Origin: Antiquaquibacter soli
Lineage (GTDB): Bacteria; Actinomycetota; Actinomycetes; Actinomycetales; Microbacteriaceae
Assembly: GCF_030580675.1 (NCBI RefSeq)
Contig: NZ_JAUQUB010000001.1
Span: 1,054,001 to 1,118,000, forward strand
Direction of reading: 5' to 3'
Length of the DNA: 64,000 nucleotides
Shown: positions 1,461 to 13,185 of the stretch, piece by piece
How the letters are laid out: each line of letters begins with the position of its first letter
Position numbering within the stretch: position 1 is the first letter of the stretch
Notes under the pieces: generated by a model
The model's database searches: none
What the model was told of the DNA's origin: nothing
Seen by the model: only the letters and a program-made list of their open reading frames with translations
Made by a program: the position numbers and the translations under genes

Positions 1461-2218
1461 GCGCCGTGGAGGGGGGCGTCCAGTACCACCTGCAGCTGCG
1501 CCCCGGAGACGTGGGCCGGTACGTGCTGCTTCCGGGCGACCCCGGCCGCTGCGAGCCGATCGCCGCGCTCTTCGACTCGCCGGCGCACGTCGCGTCGCAC
1601 CGCGAGTACACGACGTGGACGGGAACGCTCGACGGTGAGAAGGTCAGCGTCGTCTCCACGGGGATCGGATGCCCGTCCGCGGCGATCGCGGTGGAGGAGC
1701 TCCTCAGGCTGGGCGCCGACACCTTCATCCGCGTGGGCACGTCGGGCGCCATCCAGCCGGGGACCCCGTCGGGCCAGCTCGCGATCGTGAGCGCGGCGAT
1801 CCGTGACGAGGGCACCTCGAGCCACTACCTGCCGATCGAGTTCCCGGCGATCGCCGACCCCGGCGTGGTCGACGCGCTCGTGGAGGCGGCCCGGACCGTG
1901 GGCGCGTCGTACCGCGTGGGCGTCTCGCAGTCGAAGGATTCGTTCTACGGCGAGGTCGAGCCCGAACGCATGCCGATGGCCGAGCACCTGCAGGACCGCT
2001 GGAACGCGTGGATCGCGGGCGGCGCGATCTGCTCGGAGATGGAGGCCGCGGCGATCTTCGTGATCAGCTCGATCCATCGCGCGCGCGCCGGCGGGATCAT
2101 GCACATGTGGTCCGAGGGCGGCGACATGGAGCGCGACCGTCAGCGGATGCTCGAGACCTCGGTTGAGGCGCTGCGCGTGCTCATCGCCCGCGATCGGGCG
2201 GGTGCACAGTGGCCGTAG
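1457..2218 (+). CDS. uridine phosphorylase-like nucleoside phosphorylase, copy 2
   Basis: This is the tandem paralogue of the preceding gene (253 residues), with GDPGR at residues 27-31 and SEMEA near the end. The start is the GTG at 1457 inside the GTGA overlap; the open frame extends far upstream but only as a shadow of copy 1. Where copy 1 has a Met-rich stretch and a loop after RAGGIM, copy 2 has a short HMWSEGGD segment, so the C-terminal helix that helps close the active site differs. The pair could be two enzymes with different substrates or the two chains of a hetero-oligomer; the sequence does not decide. Confidence 0.85.
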   Translation: MSAVEGGVQYHLQLRPGDVGRYVLLPGDPGRCEPIAALFDSPAHVASHREYTTWTGTLDGEKVSVVSTGIGCPSAAIAVEELLRLGADTFIRVGTSGAIQPGTPSGQLAIVSAAIRDEGTSSHYLPIEFPAIADPGVVDALVEAARTVGASYRVGVSQSKDSFYGEVEPERMPMAEHLQDRWNAWIAGGAICSEMEAAAIFVISSIHRARAGGIMHMWSEGGDMERDRQRMLETSVEALRVLIARDRAGAQWP

Positions 2219-3534
2219 GGGCCGATGCCGCGCGGCTTCAGGCGGAGGCGCCGGAGTACGCGAGGCTCATGTCCGCGCACCAGCGGCGCAACTTCCTCTT
2301 CCTCGTCCTCGACGGAGCGACCTTCTCGTTCGCGATCACCCTCTTGAGCGAGACGACCATCATCCCCGCGTTCGTCCAGTCGCTCGGCGGGGGAGCGGTG
2401 CTCGTCGGGATGGTCGCGGCGGTGTACGCGGTGGGCAAGTACCTGCCCCAGCTCGTGGGCGCGCACCTGCTGCGCGGGAGATCGCGACGCAAGCCCCTGC
2501 TGCTGGCGATCGTCATCGCGGAGCGCGTGGGCATCCTCGCCATCGCGATCACCGCGCAACTGATCGGGGTGCTCGATTCGACCACGATCCTCGTGGTGTT
2601 CTTCATCGCCTTCGGCGGGTATGCGATTACGACGGGTCTCATCGGGCCCGTGTACGGCGACTTCCTCGCGAAGGCGATCACCCGCAATCGCGGGTGGTAC
2701 TACGCGATCGTGCAGCTCCTCGGCGGGGTGCTGGGGTTCACTGCGGCGCTCGTGGCGGAGAACATCATCCGCACGAGCGAGTTCCCGCAGGGCATCCAGC
2801 TCTGCTTCTGGATCTGCTTCGGCCTGTCGTTCCTGTCGATCTTCTTCGTGGCGGGCCTGAAGGAGGAGCCGTATCCGCACCCCGAGCCCCGCACGAGTCT
2901 TCGCGCGACGGTGGCGGAGATCCCGGGGGTGATCCGGGGCGACCGCTCGTACGCGCGGTTCCTCGTGGCTCGCTGCGTGCTCGCGTTCTCGACGCTGGGC
3001 ATCGGCTTCGTGGTCGTCGACGGCCTCGCGCAGGGGGTCCTCCGGCCTTCGGATGCCGCGCTCCTCGCCGCGGTCTTCATCCTGTCGCAAGCGTTGCTGG
3101 GTTTCGCCCTCGCGGCGATCGGGAACTACGTCGGCTTCAAGGTCGTGGTGATCATCGGCGGAGTGCTCATCGTCGGGGGAATGGTCGGGGCGGTGATCGG
3201 CGGAGCGCTGCCCGTCTACATCGTGACGTTCATCGCGCTCGGGGGAGCGAACGCCATGACGATCATCGCCGACCCGAACCTGTCGATCGAGCTCGCGCCC
3301 ACCAAGAGCACGAGCATCTACCTCGGCACGACGTCGACGCTGCTGGCGCCGTTCTTCATCGCCGGCCCGTTGCTGGCCGGTGTCCTCGCCCTCAGTGCGA
3401 GCTATGAGGTCGTCTTCATCGTCGCGGCGTGCGTCGCAGTCGTCGGCGTCGTCCTCGCCCTGCGGATGCACGAGCCGAGGTCGGTCGCGCTCGAGACCGT
3501 GGAAACCGTCGGCCTACCGGGAGTCCAACCATGA
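2209..3534 (+). CDS. MFS transporter, probably for nucleosides or sugars
   Basis: This 441-residue membrane protein has the usual pattern of about twelve hydrophobic helices in two halves, with a basic loop RGRSRRK after the third helix typical of the major facilitator family. The start is GTG at 2209, overlapping the end of the second phosphorylase, and the stop overlaps the ATG of the nucleoside hydrolase. The tight coupling to nucleoside-cleaving enzymes suggests it moves nucleosides, bases or pentoses across the membrane. Whether it imports substrate or exports the free base cannot be told from sequence. Confidence 0.8.
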   Translation: MAVGADAARLQAEAPEYARLMSAHQRRNFLFLVLDGATFSFAITLLSETTIIPAFVQSLGGGAVLVGMVAAVYAVGKYLPQLVGAHLLRGRSRRKPLLLAIVIAERVGILAIAITAQLIGVLDSTTILVVFFIAFGGYAITTGLIGPVYGDFLAKAITRNRGWYYAIVQLLGGVLGFTAALVAENIIRTSEFPQGIQLCFWICFGLSFLSIFFVAGLKEEPYPHPEPRTSLRATVAEIPGVIRGDRSYARFLVARCVLAFSTLGIGFVVVDGLAQGVLRPSDAALLAAVFILSQALLGFALAAIGNYVGFKVVVIIGGVLIVGGMVGAVIGGALPVYIVTFIALGGANAMTIIADPNLSIELAPTKSTSIYLGTTSTLLAPFFIAGPLLAGVLALSASYEVVFIVAACVAVVGVVLALRMHEPRSVALETVETVGLPGVQP

Positions 3535-4463
3535 GACGCATGATCATCGATACCGATACGGCGGCGGACGACAGCTTCGCGCTTCTCGTCGGCCTCCTGC
3601 ACCCCGAGGCGAGCCTGGAGGCGGTCACGATCGTCTCGGGCAACGTCGACTTCGCGCAGCAGGTGCAGAACGCGCTCATCACGATCGAGGCGGCGGGTCG
3701 CGGCGGAGAGGTGCCCGTGCACCTCGGCGCCGAGGTGCCCATGGCTCGGCCCTGGTATGCGGCGAGCGCGCACGGCGACGGCAAGGGCAACCACGATTTC
3801 CCCGTGCCGGAGCAGGCGCCGAGCGATGAGCCCGCCGCCTCCGCGCTCGTGCGACTGGTGAACGAGAACCCCGGCGAGATCGACATCGTGGCGATCGGGC
3901 CCTTGACGAACATTGCGACGGCGGTGCTGCTGGACCGTGATTTTGCCTCGAAGGTACGCCAGCTCTGGGTCATGGGAGGCTGCGACAACTCGGTCGGCAA
4001 CGTGTCGGCGGCGGCGGAGTACAACTTCTTCGTGGACCCGGAGGCGGCGGACATCGTGTTCCGCGCGGGCTTCGATGTCACCGTGGTGACGTGGACGCTC
4101 ACGCTGAAGCGAGCACTCTGGGACCGTGATCAGCTCGCGGAGATCGCGGCGATCGACACCGATCTGGCGCGCTACTTCACGATCTTGGACACCCCGAACC
4201 TGGAGTTCAACGAGGGGGTCGCGATCCAGGGCAGCACTCACCCCGACTCGCTCACGGCGATGCTGCTGGTCGAGCCGTCCCTGATCGCTGCGTCGAGCCG
4301 TAAGTTCGTCGCGATCGAGCACCACAGCGAGCTGACGCGCGGCTATTCGCTTTTCGACGACCGTCCCGAACGCAACGCGCCGAACGCGACGGTCATCGAC
4401 GACGTCGATGCGACCGGGTTCTTCGAGTCGTACAAGCGATTGCTGGCGGCAGGGTCACGCTAG
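3531..4463 (+). CDS. nucleoside hydrolase (inosine-uridine preferring family)
   Basis: This enzyme would hydrolyse ribonucleosides to base and ribose. The calcium-binding signature DTDTAADD is at residues 7-14, followed by the family's GPLTNIA segment and VMGG motif. At 310 residues it has the normal length. The ATG at 3531 overlaps the stop of the transporter (ATGA). Having a hydrolase beside two phosphorylases means the locus can release both free ribose and pentose 1-phosphate; the ribose product fits the ribokinase-like gene at the end of the cluster. An 80-base gap with an operator-like repeat separates it from the regulator. Confidence 0.9.
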   Translation: MRRMIIDTDTAADDSFALLVGLLHPEASLEAVTIVSGNVDFAQQVQNALITIEAAGRGGEVPVHLGAEVPMARPWYAASAHGDGKGNHDFPVPEQAPSDEPAASALVRLVNENPGEIDIVAIGPLTNIATAVLLDRDFASKVRQLWVMGGCDNSVGNVSAAAEYNFFVDPEAADIVFRAGFDVTVVTWTLTLKRALWDRDQLAEIAAIDTDLARYFTILDTPNLEFNEGVAIQGSTHPDSLTAMLLVEPSLIAASSRKFVAIEHHSELTRGYSLFDDRPERNAPNATVIDDVDATGFFESYKRLLAAGSR

Positions 4464-4466
4464 TGC

Positions 4467-4494
4467 GCATATGAGCAGTTTGAGCTACATATGC
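4467..4494. promoter_or_regulatory. inverted repeat, candidate operator of the SorC/DeoR regulator
   Basis: GCATATG (4467-4473) and CATATGC (4488-4494) form an inverted repeat with centres 20 to 21 bases apart, two helical turns, in the gap before the regulator gene. TGAGC also recurs inside it (4472 and 4481). SorC-family regulators such as Bacillus DeoR bind extended palindromes in front of the genes they control. A possible -10 hexamer TACAGT lies at 4517-4522 with no clear -35. Confidence 0.4.
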
Positions 4495-4543
4495 AGCTAA
4501 GCCCGCTAACGCTGTCTACAGTGGAGAGGTCGAGGGAGGTGAC

Positions 4544-5485
4544 GTGAACGAGACGACAGAGCTGCTCGCGGTGCGGGTCGCCGAGCTCTACTACGAGGAG
4601 AACAAGTCCCAGGACGAGATCGGGGGCCTCCTCGGTATTACGCGCTGGAAGGTGGGCCGGCTGCTCAGCCAGGCTCGGGAGCAGGGCATCGTGTCGATCG
4701 AGATCGTGCATCCGCGCGCCCGCCGGCTCGGCGTCGAGCGGCAGCTGCGTGAGCGCTTCGGGCTCGACGACGCGGTCGTCGTGCCCGCGACCGATGAGCC
4801 TGAGCTCTCGGCACGCGTGGCCCAGGCGGCGGCGGACTTCCTGACGGCGGTCCGCCCGGTCCCGCGCACGCTCGGCGTGAGCTGGGGTCGCACCCTCGAT
4901 GCGATCGCGGAGCGCCTGCCGACGGGGTGGGCGACGTCGGTGACCGTCGTGCAGATCAACGGCGGTGTCAGTCTGAGTCGCCGACCGGGTACGGCAGCGC
5001 ACACAGCGACCACGATCGCGCAGAAGGCGGCCGGTCAATCGGTTCTGCTACCGAGCCCCGCCATCCTCGAACGGCTCGAGACCAAGCGCGCGATCGAGTC
5101 CGATCGCACCGTCGCCGGCGTCATCGAGCTCGCCGAAGCGGCCTCGATGTACCTGTTCAGCGCGGGAGTGGCGGATGCCACGTCGATCCTCGTCGACAAC
5201 GGGTACCTCACCTCGGCCGACGTGGCCGAACTGCGTCGCAAGGGCGCGGTGGGGGACGTCGTCGGTCGCTACATCGACGCCAACGGGAATATCGTTGACC
5301 CCGGACTCGACGAGCGGACGATGGGACTGAGCCTCGACAAGCTCAGGTCGTCGAAGAACACCGTCCTCGTCCTCTCCGGCGAGAGTAAGCACGATGTCGC
5401 CCGCGCCATCGTGACCAGCGGGTTGTGCACGGTCCTCATCACCGATGAGTCGACCGCCTCGGCCCTGTTAGAGGAGCTCCCATGA
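4544..5485 (+). CDS. SorC/DeoR-type sugar-binding transcriptional regulator
   Basis: This 313-residue regulator has an N-terminal helix-turn-helix (roughly residues 8-55, with SQDEIGGLLGITRWKVGRLL) and a large C-terminal sugar-phosphate-binding domain, the SorC family arrangement. In Bacillus the DeoR protein of this family represses the deoxyribonucleoside operon and is released by deoxyribose 5-phosphate. Here it directly precedes and overlaps deoC (ATGA), so the same role is very likely. The GTG start at 4544 follows a good ribosome binding site (GGGAGGTGA). The palindrome in the preceding gap is its likely operator. Confidence 0.85.
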   Translation: MNETTELLAVRVAELYYEENKSQDEIGGLLGITRWKVGRLLSQAREQGIVSIEIVHPRARRLGVERQLRERFGLDDAVVVPATDEPELSARVAQAAADFLTAVRPVPRTLGVSWGRTLDAIAERLPTGWATSVTVVQINGGVSLSRRPGTAAHTATTIAQKAAGQSVLLPSPAILERLETKRAIESDRTVAGVIELAEAASMYLFSAGVADATSILVDNGYLTSADVAELRRKGAVGDVVGRYIDANGNIVDPGLDERTMGLSLDKLRSSKNTVLVLSGESKHDVARAIVTSGLCTVLITDESTASALLEELP

Positions 5486-6495
5486 ATTCCAGCGGACCAT
5501 CCGCACTCGCCCCGGCGCACAGGGCGATCGAACTGATCGGCTCCGATCTGACGGAGAAGTCCCTCCGACTGCACCTGGAGGGTCTCTCGGGCGTCGACGC
5601 CGTCGGCCTCGAGCAGCGCGCCGCGTCCCTCGGCACTCGCTCGATCAAGACGACCTCCAAGGCGTGGGCGCTCGACACGATCATCCGGCTCATCGACCTC
5701 ACCACTCTCGAGGGCGCCGACACCCCCGGCAAGGTGCGCTCCCTCGTCGCGAAGGCGCTCACCCCCGACCCGCAGGACGCCTCCACGCCCCGCGTCGCGG
5801 CCGTGTGCGTGTACGGCGACATGGTGCCGTCGGCCGTCGAGGCACTCGGCTCCGCCCACGGCGATCCGGACGCGGGCGGCATCTCGGTCGCGGCCGTCGC
5901 GACCGCGTTCCCGAGCGGTCGGGCATCCCTGGCCGTCAAGCTCGCGGACACCGCGGACGCCGTCGCGGCGGGCGCCGACGAGATCGACATGGTCATCGAC
6001 CGCGGCGCGTTCCTCGCCGGCAACTACGGACTGGTCTTCGACCAGATCGTGGCCGTCAAGGAGGCCTGCCGTCGCGACGACGGCAGCTACGCGCACCTCA
6101 AGGTCATCCTCGAGACGGGCGAGCTGAACACCTACGACAACGTGCGCAAGGCGTCGTGGCTGTCGATCCTCGCCGGGGGCGACTTCATCAAGACCTCGAC
6201 GGGCAAGGTCTCGCCCGCGGCGACGCTCCCCGTGACCCTGCTCATGCTCGAGGTCGTGCGCGATTGGCACCGCCTCACGGGCGAGAGGATCGGCGTGAAG
6301 CCCGCGGGCGGCATCCGTGCCTCCAAGGATGCGATCAAGTACCTCGTCACGGTCGCCGAGACCGTGGGCGAGGAGTGGCTCGTGCCCCACCTGTTCCGCT
6401 TCGGCGCCTCGAGCCTCCTGAACGACGTGCTCCTGCAGCGACAGAAGCTCTCCACCGGCCGGTACTCCGGCCCCGACTACGTGACGGTTGACTGA
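5482..6495 (+). CDS. deoC: deoxyribose-phosphate aldolase
   Basis: DERA splits 2-deoxyribose 5-phosphate into glyceraldehyde 3-phosphate and acetaldehyde, the final step of deoxynucleoside breakdown. The Schiff-base lysine is K237 in FIKTSTGK, and the second conserved lysine lies in GVKPAGG. At 337 residues it is the long form, with about 80 extra N-terminal residues compared with the short bacterial enzyme, like the animal and many actinobacterial enzymes. It is coupled to the regulator upstream and has three bases before the aldehyde dehydrogenase, which would consume its acetaldehyde. Confidence 0.95.
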   Translation: MNSSGPSALAPAHRAIELIGSDLTEKSLRLHLEGLSGVDAVGLEQRAASLGTRSIKTTSKAWALDTIIRLIDLTTLEGADTPGKVRSLVAKALTPDPQDASTPRVAAVCVYGDMVPSAVEALGSAHGDPDAGGISVAAVATAFPSGRASLAVKLADTADAVAAGADEIDMVIDRGAFLAGNYGLVFDQIVAVKEACRRDDGSYAHLKVILETGELNTYDNVRKASWLSILAGGDFIKTSTGKVSPAATLPVTLLMLEVVRDWHRLTGERIGVKPAGGIRASKDAIKYLVTVAETVGEEWLVPHLFRFGASSLLNDVLLQRQKLSTGRYSGPDYVTVD

Positions 6496-6498
6496 CCC

Positions 6499-7941
6499 AT
6501 GAGCTTCCTCGACTACGCCCCGGCACCCGAGTCCACGAGCATCCTGCACCTGAAGAAGAGCTACGGGCTCTTCATCGACGGGCAGTTCGTCAAGGGCCAC
6601 GGCTCACCGTTCCTGACGATCTCGCCCTCGACGGAGGAGCGCATCGCGGAGATCGCGAATGCGAACGCGAAGGACGTCGACACCGCCGTTGCCGCCGCCC
6701 GTCGGGCCTACGACCGCACGTGGTCGAAGCTCTCGGGAGCCGACCGCGGCAAGTACCTCTTCCGCATCGCCCGGCTCGTCCAGGAGCGCGCTCGCGAGCT
6801 CGCGGTCGCCGAGAGCCTCGACAACGGCAAGCCCATCAAGGAGTCTCGGGATGTCGATGTCCCGCTCGTCGCCGCGTGGTTCTTCTACTACGCGGGGTGG
6901 GCCGACAAGCTCGACTACGCCGGCCTCGGCCCGAATCCGCGGGCCCTCGGAGTGGCGGCGCAGGTCATCCCGTGGAACTTCCCGCTGCTCATGCTCGCGT
7001 GGAAGATCGCCCCGGCGCTCGCGGCGGGCAACACGGTCGTGCTCAAGCCCGCCGAGACGACCCCGCTGACCGCTCTGCTTTTCGCGGAGATCCTCCAGCA
7101 GGCGGACCTGCCCGCGGGCGTGGTCAACATCATCACGGGGGCCGGGGACACCGGTGAGGCACTCGTGAACCACCCGGACGTCAACAAGGTCGCCTTCACG
7201 GGGTCGACGGCCGTGGGTCGCGCGATCGCCAAGTCGGTCGCCGGCACGGGCAAGAAGGTCACGCTCGAGCTCGGCGGCAAGGCGGCCAACATCGTCTTCG
7301 ACGACGCGCCGATCGACCAGGCGGTCGAGGGGATCGTCAACGGCATCTTCTTCAACCAGGGGCACGTGTGCTGCGCGGGCTCCCGGCTCCTCGTGCAGGA
7401 GAGCATCCACGACGAGGTCATCGACCGCTTGAAGACGCGAATGTCGACGCTGCGACTGGGGGATCCGCTCGACAAGAACACCGACATCGGCGCGATCAAC
7501 TCGAAGGAGCAGCTCGAGCGCATCCGCGAGCTCAGCGACATCGGGGAGGCCGAGGGCGCCGAGCGGTGGAGCGCCCCGTGCGAGATCCCCGCGAAGGGGT
7601 TCTGGTTCGCCCCGACGATCTTCACGAACGTCTCGACGTCGAGCCGCATCGCGCGCGAGGAGATCTTCGGGCCGGTGCTGAGCGTGCTGACCTTCCGCAC
7701 TCCCGCCGAGGCGATCGCCAAGGCCAACAACACCCCGTACGGGCTCTCCGCCGGGATCTGGAGCGACAAGGGCTCCAAGATCCTCGCGGTCGCCGACCAG
7801 TTGCGCGCCGGCGTCATCTGGGCCAACACGTTCAACCGCTTCGACCCCGCGTCGCCCTTCGGCGGCTACAAGGAGTCGGGCTACGGCCGCGAGGGGGGCC
7901 GCCACGGCCTCGCCGCGTACCTCGAGGGAGGATCCTGGTGA
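6499..7941 (+). CDS. aldehyde dehydrogenase, catalytic chain of a split ALDH16-like enzyme
   Basis: This NAD(P)-dependent aldehyde dehydrogenase probably oxidises the acetaldehyde made by DeoC. It has the cofactor domain (PWNFPLL, KPAETTPL, FTGST), the general-base E257 in TLELGGK, and the nucleophile C291 in GHVCCAGS (His where most members have Gln). It is 480 residues long but stops at GLAAYLEGGSW, just where ordinary enzymes carry the C-terminal beta strand (consensus like AYTEVKTV) that completes the neighbouring subunit. That strand appears instead at the end of the next gene, which overlaps by GTGA. This reciprocal loss suggests the two chains work as one enzyme. Confidence 0.9.
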   Translation: MSFLDYAPAPESTSILHLKKSYGLFIDGQFVKGHGSPFLTISPSTEERIAEIANANAKDVDTAVAAARRAYDRTWSKLSGADRGKYLFRIARLVQERARELAVAESLDNGKPIKESRDVDVPLVAAWFFYYAGWADKLDYAGLGPNPRALGVAAQVIPWNFPLLMLAWKIAPALAAGNTVVLKPAETTPLTALLFAEILQQADLPAGVVNIITGAGDTGEALVNHPDVNKVAFTGSTAVGRAIAKSVAGTGKKVTLELGGKAANIVFDDAPIDQAVEGIVNGIFFNQGHVCCAGSRLLVQESIHDEVIDRLKTRMSTLRLGDPLDKNTDIGAINSKEQLERIRELSDIGEAEGAERWSAPCEIPAKGFWFAPTIFTNVSTSSRIAREEIFGPVLSVLTFRTPAEAIAKANNTPYGLSAGIWSDKGSKILAVADQLRAGVIWANTFNRFDPASPFGGYKESGYGREGGRHGLAAYLEGGSW

Positions 7942-8795
7942 GCCGGCTCGCAGTTCCGAAGACGTACAAGCTCTACATCGGCGGAAAGTTCCCGCGCAGC
8001 GAGAGCGGCCGTACCTACGAGGTCGTCTCGACGAAGGGCGCGTTCCTCGCGAACGCCGCCCTCGCGAGTCGCAAGGATGCCCGCGACGCCGTCGTCGCGG
8101 CCCGCGGCGCGTTCGCTGGCTGGTCCGGGGCGACCGCGTACAACCGCGGCCAGGTGCTGTACCGGATCGCCGAGCTCCTCGAGGGGCGGCGCGACCAGTT
8201 CATCGACGAGGTGGTGGCGACGGAGGGAGCATCCCGACCCTCCGCGACGAAGCAGGTCGACACGGCGATCGACGCGTGGGTCTGGTACGCCGGCTGGGCG
8301 GACAAGTACGTGCAGGCGGCGGGCAACGGCAACCCCGTGAGCGGCCCCTACTTCAATCTCTCGACCCCGGAGCCGACGGGAGTCGTCGCAGTGGTCGCCC
8401 CTCAGTCGGGCGGTTCCCTGCTGGGCCTCGTGAGCGTTCTCGCACCGGTGATCGTGAGCGGCAACACCGTCGTCGTCATCGCGAGCGAGTCCGCGCCGCT
8501 CAGCGCCATCACGCTCAGCGAGGTGCTCGCGACGAGCGATGTGCCCGGGGGAGTCGTCAACGTGCTGACCGGCTCGCCGAAGGAGATCGCGCCGTGGCTC
8601 GCCGGTCACGCCGACGTCAACGCCCTCGACCTCGCGGGTGCCGAGGCGCTCGACTGGGTCGACCTGCAGATCTCGGCGGCAGACACTCTCAAGCGAGTGC
8701 TGCCCCCGGTCGTCGGCATCCCGTCGCCATCCCTCGACCGCATCGTCGCGTTCACCGAGACGAAGACGGTCTGGCACACGAAGTCGCTCATCTGA
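7938..8795 (+). CDS. half-size aldehyde dehydrogenase-like protein without catalytic domain
   Basis: This 285-residue protein has the N-terminal oligomerisation and Rossmann parts of an aldehyde dehydrogenase (matching segments include YIGGKFPRSESGR and GNTVVVIASESAPLS) but jumps from there to the C-terminal tail RIVAFTETKTVWHTKS. The ELGGK glutamate and the catalytic cysteine region are absent, so it cannot be active alone. Its tail is the piece missing from the upstream enzyme. The combined length (480 plus 285) and the order resemble ALDH16, in which a second, inactive ALDH domain follows the active one in a single chain. The start is GTG 7938 in the GTGA overlap. It also overlaps the kinase gene. 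Confidence 0.8.
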   Translation: MSRLAVPKTYKLYIGGKFPRSESGRTYEVVSTKGAFLANAALASRKDARDAVVAARGAFAGWSGATAYNRGQVLYRIAELLEGRRDQFIDEVVATEGASRPSATKQVDTAIDAWVWYAGWADKYVQAAGNGNPVSGPYFNLSTPEPTGVVAVVAPQSGGSLLGLVSVLAPVIVSGNTVVVIASESAPLSAITLSEVLATSDVPGGVVNVLTGSPKEIAPWLAGHADVNALDLAGAEALDWVDLQISAADTLKRVLPPVVGIPSPSLDRIVAFTETKTVWHTKSLI

Positions 8796-9676
8796 TGGCC
8801 GCGGTCGTCGTGGTCGGCAGTGCGAACGTCGACCAGGTGTTCCGCGTCGACCGCATCCCCGAGCCGGGGGAGACGGTGCTCTCGACGGGGTTCGCGAACG
8901 CCCGCGGCGGCAAGGGGCAGAACCAGGCGGTCGCGGCGGCGCGGGCCGGGGCATCCACCGCCTTCATCGCCGCGATCGGCGACGACGGATTCGGCCGGCT
9001 CACCGCGGAGGGCCTCGCGGAGGACGGCATCGACTCGTCGCGCCTGCGCACCCTCGACGGTCCCACCGGAACCGCGCTCATCGCGGTCGATCCGCGGGGC
9101 GAGAACACGATCATCGTGGAGGCGGGGGCGAACGGCCGGCTGGCGCCGCTCGACGAGGCCGACCGATCCGTCATCGCCGCCGCCTCCGTGCTCGTGATGC
9201 AGCTCGAGATCCCGCTGGAGACCGTGGCGGAGGCCGCGGCCGCCGCGCGCGCGGGCGGCACGACCGCCCTGCTGAACGCCGCTCCGATCGCGGAGCTCCC
9301 GGATGCCCTGCTCGCGAATCTCGACGTGCTCGTCGTCAACGAGCACGAGGCGGCGCACTTGCGCTCGAGCTCCGGTGCCGCGGAACTCACGGAACTCGTT
9401 CCCACCGTCGTCGTCACTCTGGGCGCCGAGGGCGCGGAGCTGCATCGCCGCGGGGGCGACGTCGTGCGCGTGCCGGCTCCGCGGGTGACGGCGGTGGACG
9501 CCACGGGCGCGGGCGACACGTTCTGCGGCGCCTTCGCTGCCGCCCTCGCCGAGGGAGCCGAGGCCGGCGACGCGGTGCGATTCGCGGTGACGGCGGCATC
9601 CCTGTCCGTGCAGGAGCACGGCGCGGTGCCGTCGATCCCGCACCGGGCGGCCATCGATGCCGCACTCGCCGAGTAA
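8795..9676 (+). CDS. rbsK: ribokinase-like PfkB family sugar kinase
   Basis: This 293-residue cytoplasmic kinase has the N-terminal ribokinase motif GGKGQNQA and the C-terminal signature DATGAGDTFCGAF, with catalytic base D241. It would phosphorylate ribose (from the nucleoside hydrolase) or deoxyribose to feed DeoC. The ATG at 8795 overlaps the previous stop (TGATG). It closes the nucleoside cluster. Ribose is the first guess; a 2-deoxyribokinase role is a real alternative given deoC in the same operon. Confidence 0.85.
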   Translation: MAAVVVVGSANVDQVFRVDRIPEPGETVLSTGFANARGGKGQNQAVAAARAGASTAFIAAIGDDGFGRLTAEGLAEDGIDSSRLRTLDGPTGTALIAVDPRGENTIIVEAGANGRLAPLDEADRSVIAAASVLVMQLEIPLETVAEAAAAARAGGTTALLNAAPIAELPDALLANLDVLVVNEHEAAHLRSSSGAAELTELVPTVVVTLGAEGAELHRRGGDVVRVPAPRVTAVDATGAGDTFCGAFAAALAEGAEAGDAVRFAVTAASLSVQEHGAVPSIPHRAAIDAALAE

Positions 9677-10735: not shown

Positions 10736-12363
10736 ATGGGTACCTGGTGGCGCGCGGTCGCGGCGGGGGTCGCACTCGCGGCGGGGATACTCGGTAATGG
10801 CGGCGCGAGCGCGGCAGTCGCCGACAACTCCGTCCGAGTCGCCGCGACCGAGCCGTCGGCGTGCTCGGGGCGGCCCTTATCGTGCGACCTCGACGCGGCA
10901 CGACGAAGGCGCCCGACACAGGCACCCCGTTGACCGTCACCGCCGCCTACAACGCGGCGGGCCAGCTGACCTCGGAAGCCAAGAAGCGTCCGGGTCTGCT
11001 GGGAAGCTCCACGGTATCGACGTCGTACTCCTACGACGCGAACGGTAACCGCACCAAGGAGCAGACCGGGCTGGCGTCCACGACCTACTCCTACACCGAC
11101 GACGACAAGCTGTCGAAGATCTCCGAGGCCGGCCGCACGGTCACGACCGGCTACGACGGTCTCGGCCGCGCCCTGACCTCCACAACAAGGTCGCTGCTGG
11201 TGCTGGGGCAGACGAGCACGCAGGTGTGGGATGGCCTGGAGGTGGTGCAACAGGATGCCGCCCTCACGGGTGTCTCGAACCTGGTGCGTGACGTCACCGG
11301 TGAGGTGGCCATCCAAACCGCCGAGGGGCTGCTCTCCGGTGGTGACCGGTGGGGTTTGACGGACCGTTTGGGTTCCACGATCGGCCAGGCGTCGGGGTCG
11401 CGGGTGTCGCAGGTGGTGTCGTACTCGGATTGGGGCATCCCCACCTTCCAGACCCTCGGCTACAACTCCGCTGCTGGTTTCACCGGCGAGCTGGGCGACA
11501 GCATCACGGGGTTGAGTGAGTATTTCGCTCGCGCCTACGATCCGTGGTCGGCGTCGTGGTTGCAGGCGGACCCCTACCGGGGAACTCTGGATGCCCCGGG
11601 CACCCTCAACCGCTACGCCTACGCCGAGGGCAACCCGGCGACGTTGCAGGACTACTACGGGTATGCGACCTCCCGCGTACAGCTCGAGACACGGCAGGGT
11701 GCCTCGACGGGTCCGTCAGGACCGCGGGCGAAGGGCGGCCCACCGCCGAAACCGGATGCGACTTCCCCGGACGACTATGTCGAGCGCGGGACTGCACGAC
11801 ACGCGCCGCCATGCGCTCTGGCTGGGCCGTGCGGAACCAACGTCGGTGCGATACCTCTGATAGCCGGCGGGGCCCTGGCCGTGCTGCTCTCAGCACTCCG
11901 AACCCTCGTTGCAATCGGTCTCGCAACGGCTGCGATTCTCGCCCTGATCGCCATCATCGAGCGAGTCCTGCGAGAGATCGACAAGCTCACCGAGGACCGA
12001 CAAATCGCCGCACCCCCCGCGCCGAAGCCCCAGACCCAGACCGGCGGGGGAAGCAACGGCGGCTCACCACCAGTAATCCCGCCCGCGCTGGGTGGCCCCG
12101 ACCACGAGGACAGCGACGACGGATTCGACCAGGTCGGGGGCGAGGCAGGTCGCTACTCGGTAGACGAGCTAGCGCAGCTTGCGACTCGACATGGCGGAGA
12201 GGGTCGTCCAAGCTTCGAGGATGCACTAAATGCATTGGAGAACGGCACTAGGTACACAGTGGAAGGCAGTCAAGGAGTTCGGTTCGACTATGGCAATGTC
12301 CGCGTCATCATCAATGAGGCCCAACCATGGCGAAGCACCACATACTGGATTGGATCGCCCTGA
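10736..12363 (+). pseudogene. truncated, frame-shifted secreted Rhs protein with intact C-terminal toxin-like tip
   Basis: Full Rhs proteins are large YD-repeat shells carrying a C-terminal toxin. Here an ATG at 10736 (behind GAGAGGG) starts a signal peptide ending in ASAA, but this frame stops at 10933. The remaining sequence continues in another frame, open from a GTG at 10861 to 12363: a few YD repeats (AAYNAAGQLTSE, YSYDANGNRTKE), then the Rhs core (DPWSASWLQADPYRG, LNRYAYAEGNPATLQDYYG), a hydrophobic stretch of about 40 residues, a proline-rich linker, and a roughly 75-residue tip from 12145. The tip (DYGNVRVIINEAQPWRSTTYWI) recalls small RelE/DUF4258-type RNases, but I cannot assign it. 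Most of the repeat body appears deleted, with the junction between about 10860 and 10920. The tip has lower GC than its surroundings. Confidence 0.7.
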
Positions 12364-12375
12364 CGGGGAGGCTTG

Positions 12376-13185
12376 ATGTCAACAACGGTAGAAGTGAGCG
12401 CGGCCCAATGGGGTAGTCAGGTGGGAAGAGACGCGTCCGACACGTTCGGAGCCCGCGTGCAATCCTGGGCAGCACACGTCAGTCGTTTGGCGCGCGAACG
12501 TGACATGCATGAGGACGATCCTGCTCGGTGGGGCGCGGACGACTTCGTCGCTGCGCTGTTCGTGCGAGATCGTCTAGAGGCCGCCATCGAGCAGGTGTGG
12601 GAGGGCAATGCTGCGCCAGCTGTCGTCCGTGTGGCGGACGACTTGTTCGAGAACGTCTCCGAGCCGATCGATTCGTTGCATTTCCTCGAGTGGGATGCCC
12701 GCGACGATCGCTGGTGGTGGAAACGCATACCCACATATGGACCGATTCGTGCCGAGATCGAACGGCGCCGGGCGACAGTATCCCACCACTCGCTGTCCGA
12801 AGAAGGTTTACGAAGGCTGGCGAACGGGCCCGTTCCGACCGCGGTCGCCTCGTTCATGCAATGGCTGGCACGACGGGGATTCTCGCCGGCCCCGGAAGCT
12901 GGGGAAGACCCTGCGACCAGGTTCTATCGTGCAGACGGCATGCGGGTCTCAATGAGGATCGGGCCCGAGGGCTGGGAGTTGCTCGTCGGTCCGCCCGTTG
13001 CGGCGGGCGAAGAGTTCGGGGCGTTCGAGTGGGCCACTGTGTCAGGACTTCAGGTCGACCAGACAGGATTCGAGGGTGCAGCCCGCTTCTTTCGAGCCGA
13101 GTGGCCGCGCGTCAAGGCTCTCTCTACGATTCCTGCCACCGCGGAGTCGCTCAGGGAGGCCCGCAGCAGCCGCAGCGAGCAATAG
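12376..13185 (+). CDS. putative immunity protein for the Rhs tip
   Basis: This 269-residue soluble protein starts 13 bases after the Rhs reading frame, behind a GGGGAGG ribosome binding site (ATG 12376). I do not recognise a named family. It is acidic and Trp-rich (for example DDRWWWKRIP), with no signal or membrane segment, consistent with a cytoplasmic inhibitor. Rhs and other polymorphic toxin genes are almost always followed by the cognate immunity gene, and this one is intact although the toxin's N-terminal part is broken. Length and two dissimilar halves (about 1-125 and 135-250) leave open two immunity domains. Confidence 0.6.
   Translation: MSTTVEVSAAQWGSQVGRDASDTFGARVQSWAAHVSRLARERDMHEDDPARWGADDFVAALFVRDRLEAAIEQVWEGNAAPAVVRVADDLFENVSEPIDSLHFLEWDARDDRWWWKRIPTYGPIRAEIERRRATVSHHSLSEEGLRRLANGPVPTAVASFMQWLARRGFSPAPEAGEDPATRFYRADGMRVSMRIGPEGWELLVGPPVAAGEEFGAFEWATVSGLQVDQTGFEGAARFFRAEWPRVKALSTIPATAESLREARSSRSEQ

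Follow-up and report, generated by a model that had tools for sequence, protein, structure and literature searches.

Members of aldehyde dehydrogenase family 16 (ALDH16) are defined by two ALDH-like parts that lie on one polypeptide. In single-chain ALDH16 the second half lacks the catalytic domain; its internal, tertiary contacts imitate the quaternary ones found in other ALDHs, and two ALDH16 chains together imitate the classical ALDH tetramer (PMC8160307). The human member of the family, ALDH16A1, is described in two reviews as a pseudoenzyme without the catalytic residues (PMC10650815, PMC8160307). ALDH16 itself is therefore known, and the two-gene form reported here, from a 64,000-nucleotide stretch of the Antiquaquibacter soli genome (contig NZ_JAUQUB010000001.1; hereafter, the window), is a variant of it. 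Searches of open-licence PMC papers brought up no account of a split ALDH16, and the original ALDH16 paper could still mention one.

In the window, the two chains are encoded by overlapping open reading frames on the plus strand, exactly where the preliminary description of this DNA had placed them. By open reading frame, alignment and model, chain 1 (alpha; 6499-7941, 480 residues, TGA stop) is a catalytic ALDH and chain 2 (beta; 7938-8795, 285 residues, GTG start) a pseudo-ALDH. They belong to a tight plus-strand run of seven genes, 2209-9676, that opens with an MFS transporter (2209-3534, Pfam match to PF07690), possibly a nucleoside or sugar importer. This is followed by an inosine/uridine-preferring nucleoside hydrolase (3528-4463, PF01156, with the start codon chosen in our analysis), a SorC/DeoR-type sugar-binding regulator (4544-5485, PF04198; NF053881 below cut-off) and deoC, the gene for deoxyribose-phosphate aldolase (5482-6495, TIGR00126 above cut-off); the run closes, after the two chains, with a PfkB-family ribokinase-like kinase (8795-9676, TIGR02152 slightly below cut-off). 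The regulator gene overlaps deoC by 4 nt, 3 nt lie between the end of deoC and chain 1, and the kinase gene overlaps chain 2 by 1 nt. Chains 1 and 2 share 4 nt, the GTGA of a start/stop overlap at 7938-7941, and a Shine-Dalgarno-like GGAGG (7927-7931) lies within the 3' end of chain 1, six bases before the GTG of chain 2; together these form a putative coupling site on the plus strand at 7927-7941. A scan for promoters and terminators gave no signal clearly above shuffled sequence. Farther along the window, a 500-residue open reading frame at 10861-12363 resembles, by eye, an RHS/YD-repeat protein whose C-terminus varies, and another at 12373-13185 comes after it, giving the locus the look of a polymorphic RHS locus.

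A search of all PDB sequences returned Loktanella ALDH16 (6mvr/6mvu) as the best match of both chains, chain 1 at residues 11-475 (E 7.6e-167) and chain 2 at residues 500-762 (E 2.9e-54), and the cut between the chains therefore sits in the linker between the halves. The summed length, 480+285=765 residues against 767 in the Loktanella PDB chain, bears out the earlier estimate of about one ALDH16, and chain 2, whose alignment to an unrelated Rossmann family would have spoken against the idea, has ALDH16 as its best match. ALDH16 entries were also the best PDB fold for the AlphaFold models of both chains. The chain 2 model, with a mean pLDDT of 92.5, reached a query TM-score of 0.90 over 281 columns; the mean pLDDT of the chain 1 model was 79.2, with values below 50 at residues 1-8, 286-293, 323-328 and 442-468. 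Pfam Aldedh is matched by both chains alike and, among the best 25 NCBIfam matches listed per chain, none lies above its own cut-off, so that split pairs may pass for two ordinary enzymes in annotations. In trees rooted on ordinary ALDHs, chain 1 and the fused N halves share one side of a branch in one tree (SH-aLRT 99), as do chain 2 and the fused C halves in another (SH-aLRT 100). The trees were made with a quick method that gives SH-aLRT support only, and their long outgroup branches were flagged; matches under the score and coverage limits and identical sequences were removed from the alignments, and the removal of near-identical rows before the chain 1 tree left 32 of the 34 rows chosen from Actinomycetota and 14 of the 20 from Verrucomicrobiota. 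Judged by sequence, both halves thus appear orthologous to the matching halves of fused ALDH16 and stand apart from ordinary ALDHs. The two parts do not share one polypeptide, and we therefore name the pair a two-gene variant of ALDH16 and not a plain member.

Chain 1 has the make-up of the N-terminal part of ALDH16, an ALDH with NAD-binding and catalytic domains and, by sequence, predicted activity. Its catalytic Glu257 and Cys291, named in the preliminary description, do not vary among 30 aligned sequences of chain 1 and line up with the Glu and Cys of ordinary ALDHs (Glu in 13 of 14 at the first column, Cys in 14 of 14 at the second). In the larger alignment N160, K183, E257, C291 and E388 are constant in 171/171 chain 1 rows. 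Counted as residues between fixed landmarks in a single alignment, the hairpin that is part of the oligomerisation flap has 27-31 residues in 14/14 ordinary ALDHs, and its place holds 20 residues in 165/171 chain 1 rows (18 in two, 21 in two and 29 in two, L079 and L141, where the extra residues are by eye a low-complexity insert unlike the flap) and 18 residues in the N half of fused ALDH16 (2/2). Chain 1 also stops, as had been noted, at AYLEGGSW (its C-terminal end reads GLAAYLEGGSW), where the C-terminal strand is indeed absent; with a 20-residue loop in place of the hairpin, both parts of the flap are missing. The end falls at most 12 residues past the GREGG motif in 139 of the 170 rows with the motif. 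The remaining 31 rows, nearly all from genomes of the same family, have tails that are longer and mostly of low complexity, and the C-terminal strand was not seen in these. In L010-L041, mostly from same-family genomes, the chain 1 tails measure 17-52 residues, are variable and often rich in lysine and alanine, and end near the start of chain 2; the window's own tail is short beside these, and the variable tail is possibly a linker-like docking tail. In Streptomyces sp. DHE7-1 (L135, 3081-4978) the chain 1 frame seems interrupted, with chain 2 and deoC intact.

Chain 2 consists of an NAD-fold, a full hairpin and the C-terminal strand ETKTVWH, without a catalytic domain, and ends in FTETKTVWHTKSLI. 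The columns of the catalytic Cys and of E388 hold no residue in 174/174 chain 2 rows, and the K183 column is V, I or L in 168/174, which points to a decayed NAD site. The hairpin has 31 residues in 173/173 split chain 2 rows and 28 in the C half of fused ALDH16 (2/2), as it has in the chain 2 row of L069, which is a fused-type C half. Strands are predicted in the model at residues 140-146 and 273-279, the latter being the oligomerisation strand in which, according to the preliminary description, chain 2 ends. E274, K276, T277, W279 and H280 are each at least 95% conserved among the 174 rows, a level reached by 67 columns, and the conservation extends beyond the flap. Chain 2 thus has what characterises the C-terminal part of ALDH16, an NAD-fold without catalytic domain and a terminal beta-flap. 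The earlier picture of an active followed by an inactive ALDH domain is better put as an ALDH followed by an NAD-fold plus flap that has no catalytic domain. The proposed reciprocal loss likewise survives as a reciprocal partition and falls as a new loss, for the second half of fused ALDH16 already lacks the catalytic domain and the pair is therefore the ALDH16 layout cut in the linker. The partition also goes further than had been described, as chain 1 has neither part of the flap and chain 2 has both, along with its decayed NAD site.

The split is widespread. A chain 2 of 65% or higher identity occurs in 87/150 genomes of the same family, the window's own counted (65-84% in the 86 others), and one at E up to 1e-35 was found in 71/296 genomes of the phylum. 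The chains are separate open reading frames in 59/59 loci of one set, which includes the window's own, with chain 1 just upstream of chain 2 in 58 and about 1.4 kb away in the remaining one (region L090). Among the best 80 of 587 confirmed loci, 77 of which are from Actinomycetota, on this count taken as the window's phylum, chain 1 lies upstream as a separate open reading frame in 76; two of the other four (L148, L130) are at contig ends, and two (L152, L170) are Verrucomicrobia loci with chain 1 on another contig. The spacing varies: measured to the nearest start of chain 2, 154 pairs include 45 with a 4-nt, 42 with an 8-nt and 17 with a 1-nt overlap, and 28 in which this start comes more than 20 nt after chain 1 (five further pairs, with no chain 2 start codon in reach, were omitted). 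An assembly or sequencing error and a pseudogene are ruled out by the presence in 87/150 genomes, the 59/59 split loci and the varied overlaps and gaps. Of 173 fetched loci in which both chains pass the filters only 2 are fused, both on proteobacterial plasmids, and no fused ALDH16 turned up among those fetched from the window's phylum. A fused-type ALDH16 fragment occurs in a small genome assigned to Verrucomicrobiota (L245, genome G552), possibly through contamination or recent transfer. On pSymB of Sinorhizobium meliloti R28 (L069, 4330-6855) a fused ALDH16 has a broken frame; a second, independent split in this species was considered and rejected, since strain 2011 (L239) has one intact open reading frame, and we put the R28 case down to a broken frame in this one record.

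The two chains occur together with few exceptions. With cut-offs of E up to 1e-150 for chain 1 and up to 1e-35 for chain 2, 68 of the 296 genomes of the phylum have both (69 have chain 1 and 71 chain 2 in total; chain 1 only in one, chain 2 only in three), and in the four mismatched genomes (G284, G360, G414, G433) the locus is cut by a contig end. Three of the 68 (G219, G246, G330) have the chains on different contigs, with at least one match at a contig end. Among 194 Verrucomicrobiota genomes, 24 have chain 2, 23 have chain 1 and 23 have both, the sole exception being the fused-type fragment of G552. Fisher tests gave p values of 4e-62 for the phylum and 6e-29 for Verrucomicrobiota, both uncorrected for shared descent. 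Pairs are also retained when unlinked: in G442, G610 and G443 (the last via its locus) the chains are on different contigs and other sequence flanks chain 2, and in G444 they are on different contigs with chain 2 at a contig end, where linkage is possible. This co-occurrence is strong, not conclusive, evidence that chain 1 and chain 2 need each other. A mirror-tree test that used DeoC as control, with 103 loci reduced to 62 by removing near-identical rows, gave a slight and not decisive excess for the pair (partial rho 0.52 between chains 1 and 2, against 0.39 and 0.42 with DeoC), the coupling of the chains being the larger in 93% and 81% of bootstraps. In three Verrucomicrobiota loci (L152:4998-8434, L170:5001-7000 and L249:5320-8561) chain 2 stands directly before phosphopentomutase (deoB), away from chain 1, with thymidine phosphorylase (deoA) following in L152 and L249; deoB and deoA of L152 pass NCBIfam cut-offs, and the genes of L170 and L249 were assigned by match to those of L152.

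The neighbourhood of the pair suggests its substrate. Among the best 80 of the 587 confirmed loci, 73 have deoC upstream of chain 1, 72 of them at a distance of up to 100 nt, and five of the seven loci without it are at contig ends and two are from Verrucomicrobia; in wider regions it was present in 18/20, the other two running out at contig ends. The unlinked chain 1 genes of L183, L184 and L185 have deoC upstream at 0.1, 4.7 and 0.7 kb, and the 11 kb of L250, another locus with unlinked chain 1, showed no deoC. Fused ALDH16 genes on plasmids of Alpha- and Betaproteobacteria have deoC directly upstream in 10/10 intact loci examined, with an annotated ribokinase near by in three. The reaction of DeoC yields glyceraldehyde 3-phosphate and acetaldehyde (PMC8346489). 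The adjacency of deoC together with this reaction therefore points to acetaldehyde as the natural substrate of the split ALDH16, as had been proposed earlier; the adjacency would also fit a detoxifying ALDH of broad range. With a deoC neighbourhood in three phyla, ALDH16 gains a likely physiological substrate, the acetaldehyde from deoxyribose breakdown.

We propose, with a probability of roughly 0.77, that chains 1 and 2 form an alpha2-beta2, two-gene ALDH16 that oxidises the acetaldehyde released by DeoC; in this proposal, we infer the binding of the chains, their stoichiometry, their dependence and the substrate. Chain 1 would be the catalytic subunit and, since it lacks both parts of the flap, is not expected to pair with a second copy of itself as in the classic ALDH dimer. 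Chain 2, a pseudo-ALDH with a decayed NAD site, would be catalytically inert; it would contribute the flap and bind chain 1 in trans at the place that the C-terminal domain occupies in single-chain ALDH16. As the flap missing from chain 1 is the one that the fused N half is also without, and chain 2 provides it, an alpha2-beta2 particle is likely, which would mimic the classic ALDH tetramer. The enzyme would turn acetaldehyde from DeoC into acetate during the breakdown of deoxyribonucleosides. The proposals of a hetero-complex and of acetaldehyde as its substrate are well founded: the pair is homologous to the 6mvr layout, deoC is a neighbour in three phyla, and the chains co-occur almost without exception, even in three cases of unlinked genes. 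The label of a split ALDH16-like enzyme is upheld by sequence, fold, trees, residue and flap anatomy and co-occurrence.

Chain 1 alone might nevertheless exist as a non-classical oligomer. It could even be self-sufficient in such an unusual form, with chain 2 serving as an accessory regulator or scaffold, for example as a tether to DeoC, and not as a structural subunit. The constancy with which deoC accompanies the pair, its misses falling at contig ends or in Verrucomicrobiota, would suit an accessory role, and so would the conservation of chain 2 beyond the flap; the position of chain 2 beside deoB and deoA in some Verrucomicrobiota would allow a second role for it. We nevertheless consider an accessory chain 2 unlikely, because chain 2 corresponds to residues 500-762 of the single-chain enzyme and occurs almost perfectly with chain 1, which itself lacks the flap just as the fused N half does.

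The alpha2-beta2 enzyme also has to be weighed against two readings in which chain 2 is no separate functional protein. Ribosomal frameshifting by -1 could join the chains into one ALDH16 protein, the split being only apparent, and the window offers some of what this would need: chain 2 is in the -1 frame, which is open upstream, and a G GGG GGC heptamer lies in the frame of chain 1 at 7893-7899, 49 nt before its end. However, a heptamer in the right frame occurs in 3/154 pairs, the window among them, and at differing places, so that frameshift fusion does not hold as a general mechanism. In other pairs the genes share a frame but are separated by a stop, lie far apart or are unlinked, and chain 2 has its own GTG start with GGAGG; frameshifting is thus highly improbable. 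More improbable still, and largely refuted, is that chain 2 is the functionless, decaying remnant of a tandem ALDH duplicate. Its missing catalytic domain and lost NAD site would agree with decay, as would its faster divergence (mean distance among the 62 loci 0.67, against 0.39 for chain 1). A remnant would hardly be expected to keep 65-84% identity in 86 other genomes of the family and 67 columns conserved to at least 95%, nor to co-occur with chain 1 across two phyla, and no internal stop was seen among the chain 2 matches listed.

As to the direction of change, the chain 1 tree places the split form as sister group to the fused form (support 99 each), as does the chain 2 part of another tree (93 and 99), and the trees therefore favour neither fusion first nor fission first; against this, in that second tree a single fused N-half row of 250 residues falls inside chain 1 with support 75. 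In our opinion, a tandem duplicate that was later fused is the simpler start. A broader reading, which we regard as doubtful, is that ALDH16 was at its root a two-subunit enzyme of the deoxyribose pathway, in which a flapless catalytic ALDH depended on a pseudo-ALDH. The genes would have remained separate in Actinomycetota and Verrucomicrobiota and have been fused later in Proteobacteria and perhaps also in the line that led to animals, and the pseudo-subunit may dock DeoC, acetaldehyde being passed on without release. Liu and Tanner (2019) reportedly left open what the additional C-terminal domain of ALDH16 does. Halves that are naturally separate make the catalytic subunit obtainable with and without its partner and so permit a direct test of what the C-terminal half does, and the two-gene ALDH16 that offers this is widespread, beside a gene of deoxyribose breakdown.

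Compared with known systems, chain 1 shares its catalytic and NAD residues and its fold with canonical tetramers of the ALDH1/2 type. Each of the 14 ordinary ALDHs carries a hairpin of 27-31 residues itself, together with a C-terminal tail in which, with few exceptions, a strand-like motif is seen; chain 1 has neither. Human ALDH16A1, as known from descriptions, lacks the catalytic residues that chain 1 possesses. Single-chain ALDH16 of Loktanella (6mvr/6mvs/6mvt/6mvu; Liu and Tanner 2019) has the same halves in the same order with corresponding domain boundaries, and its catalytic residues are in the first half. The fused plasmid ALDH16 has the flap hairpin in its second half only (2/2), as in the split pair, and the window's chain 2 is 39-44% identical to the fused ALDH16 C halves listed. 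What distinguishes the pair from single-chain ALDH16 is that the halves are two proteins here, encoded by genes that overlap at GTGA in the window and that are, in other taxa, also spaced or unlinked.
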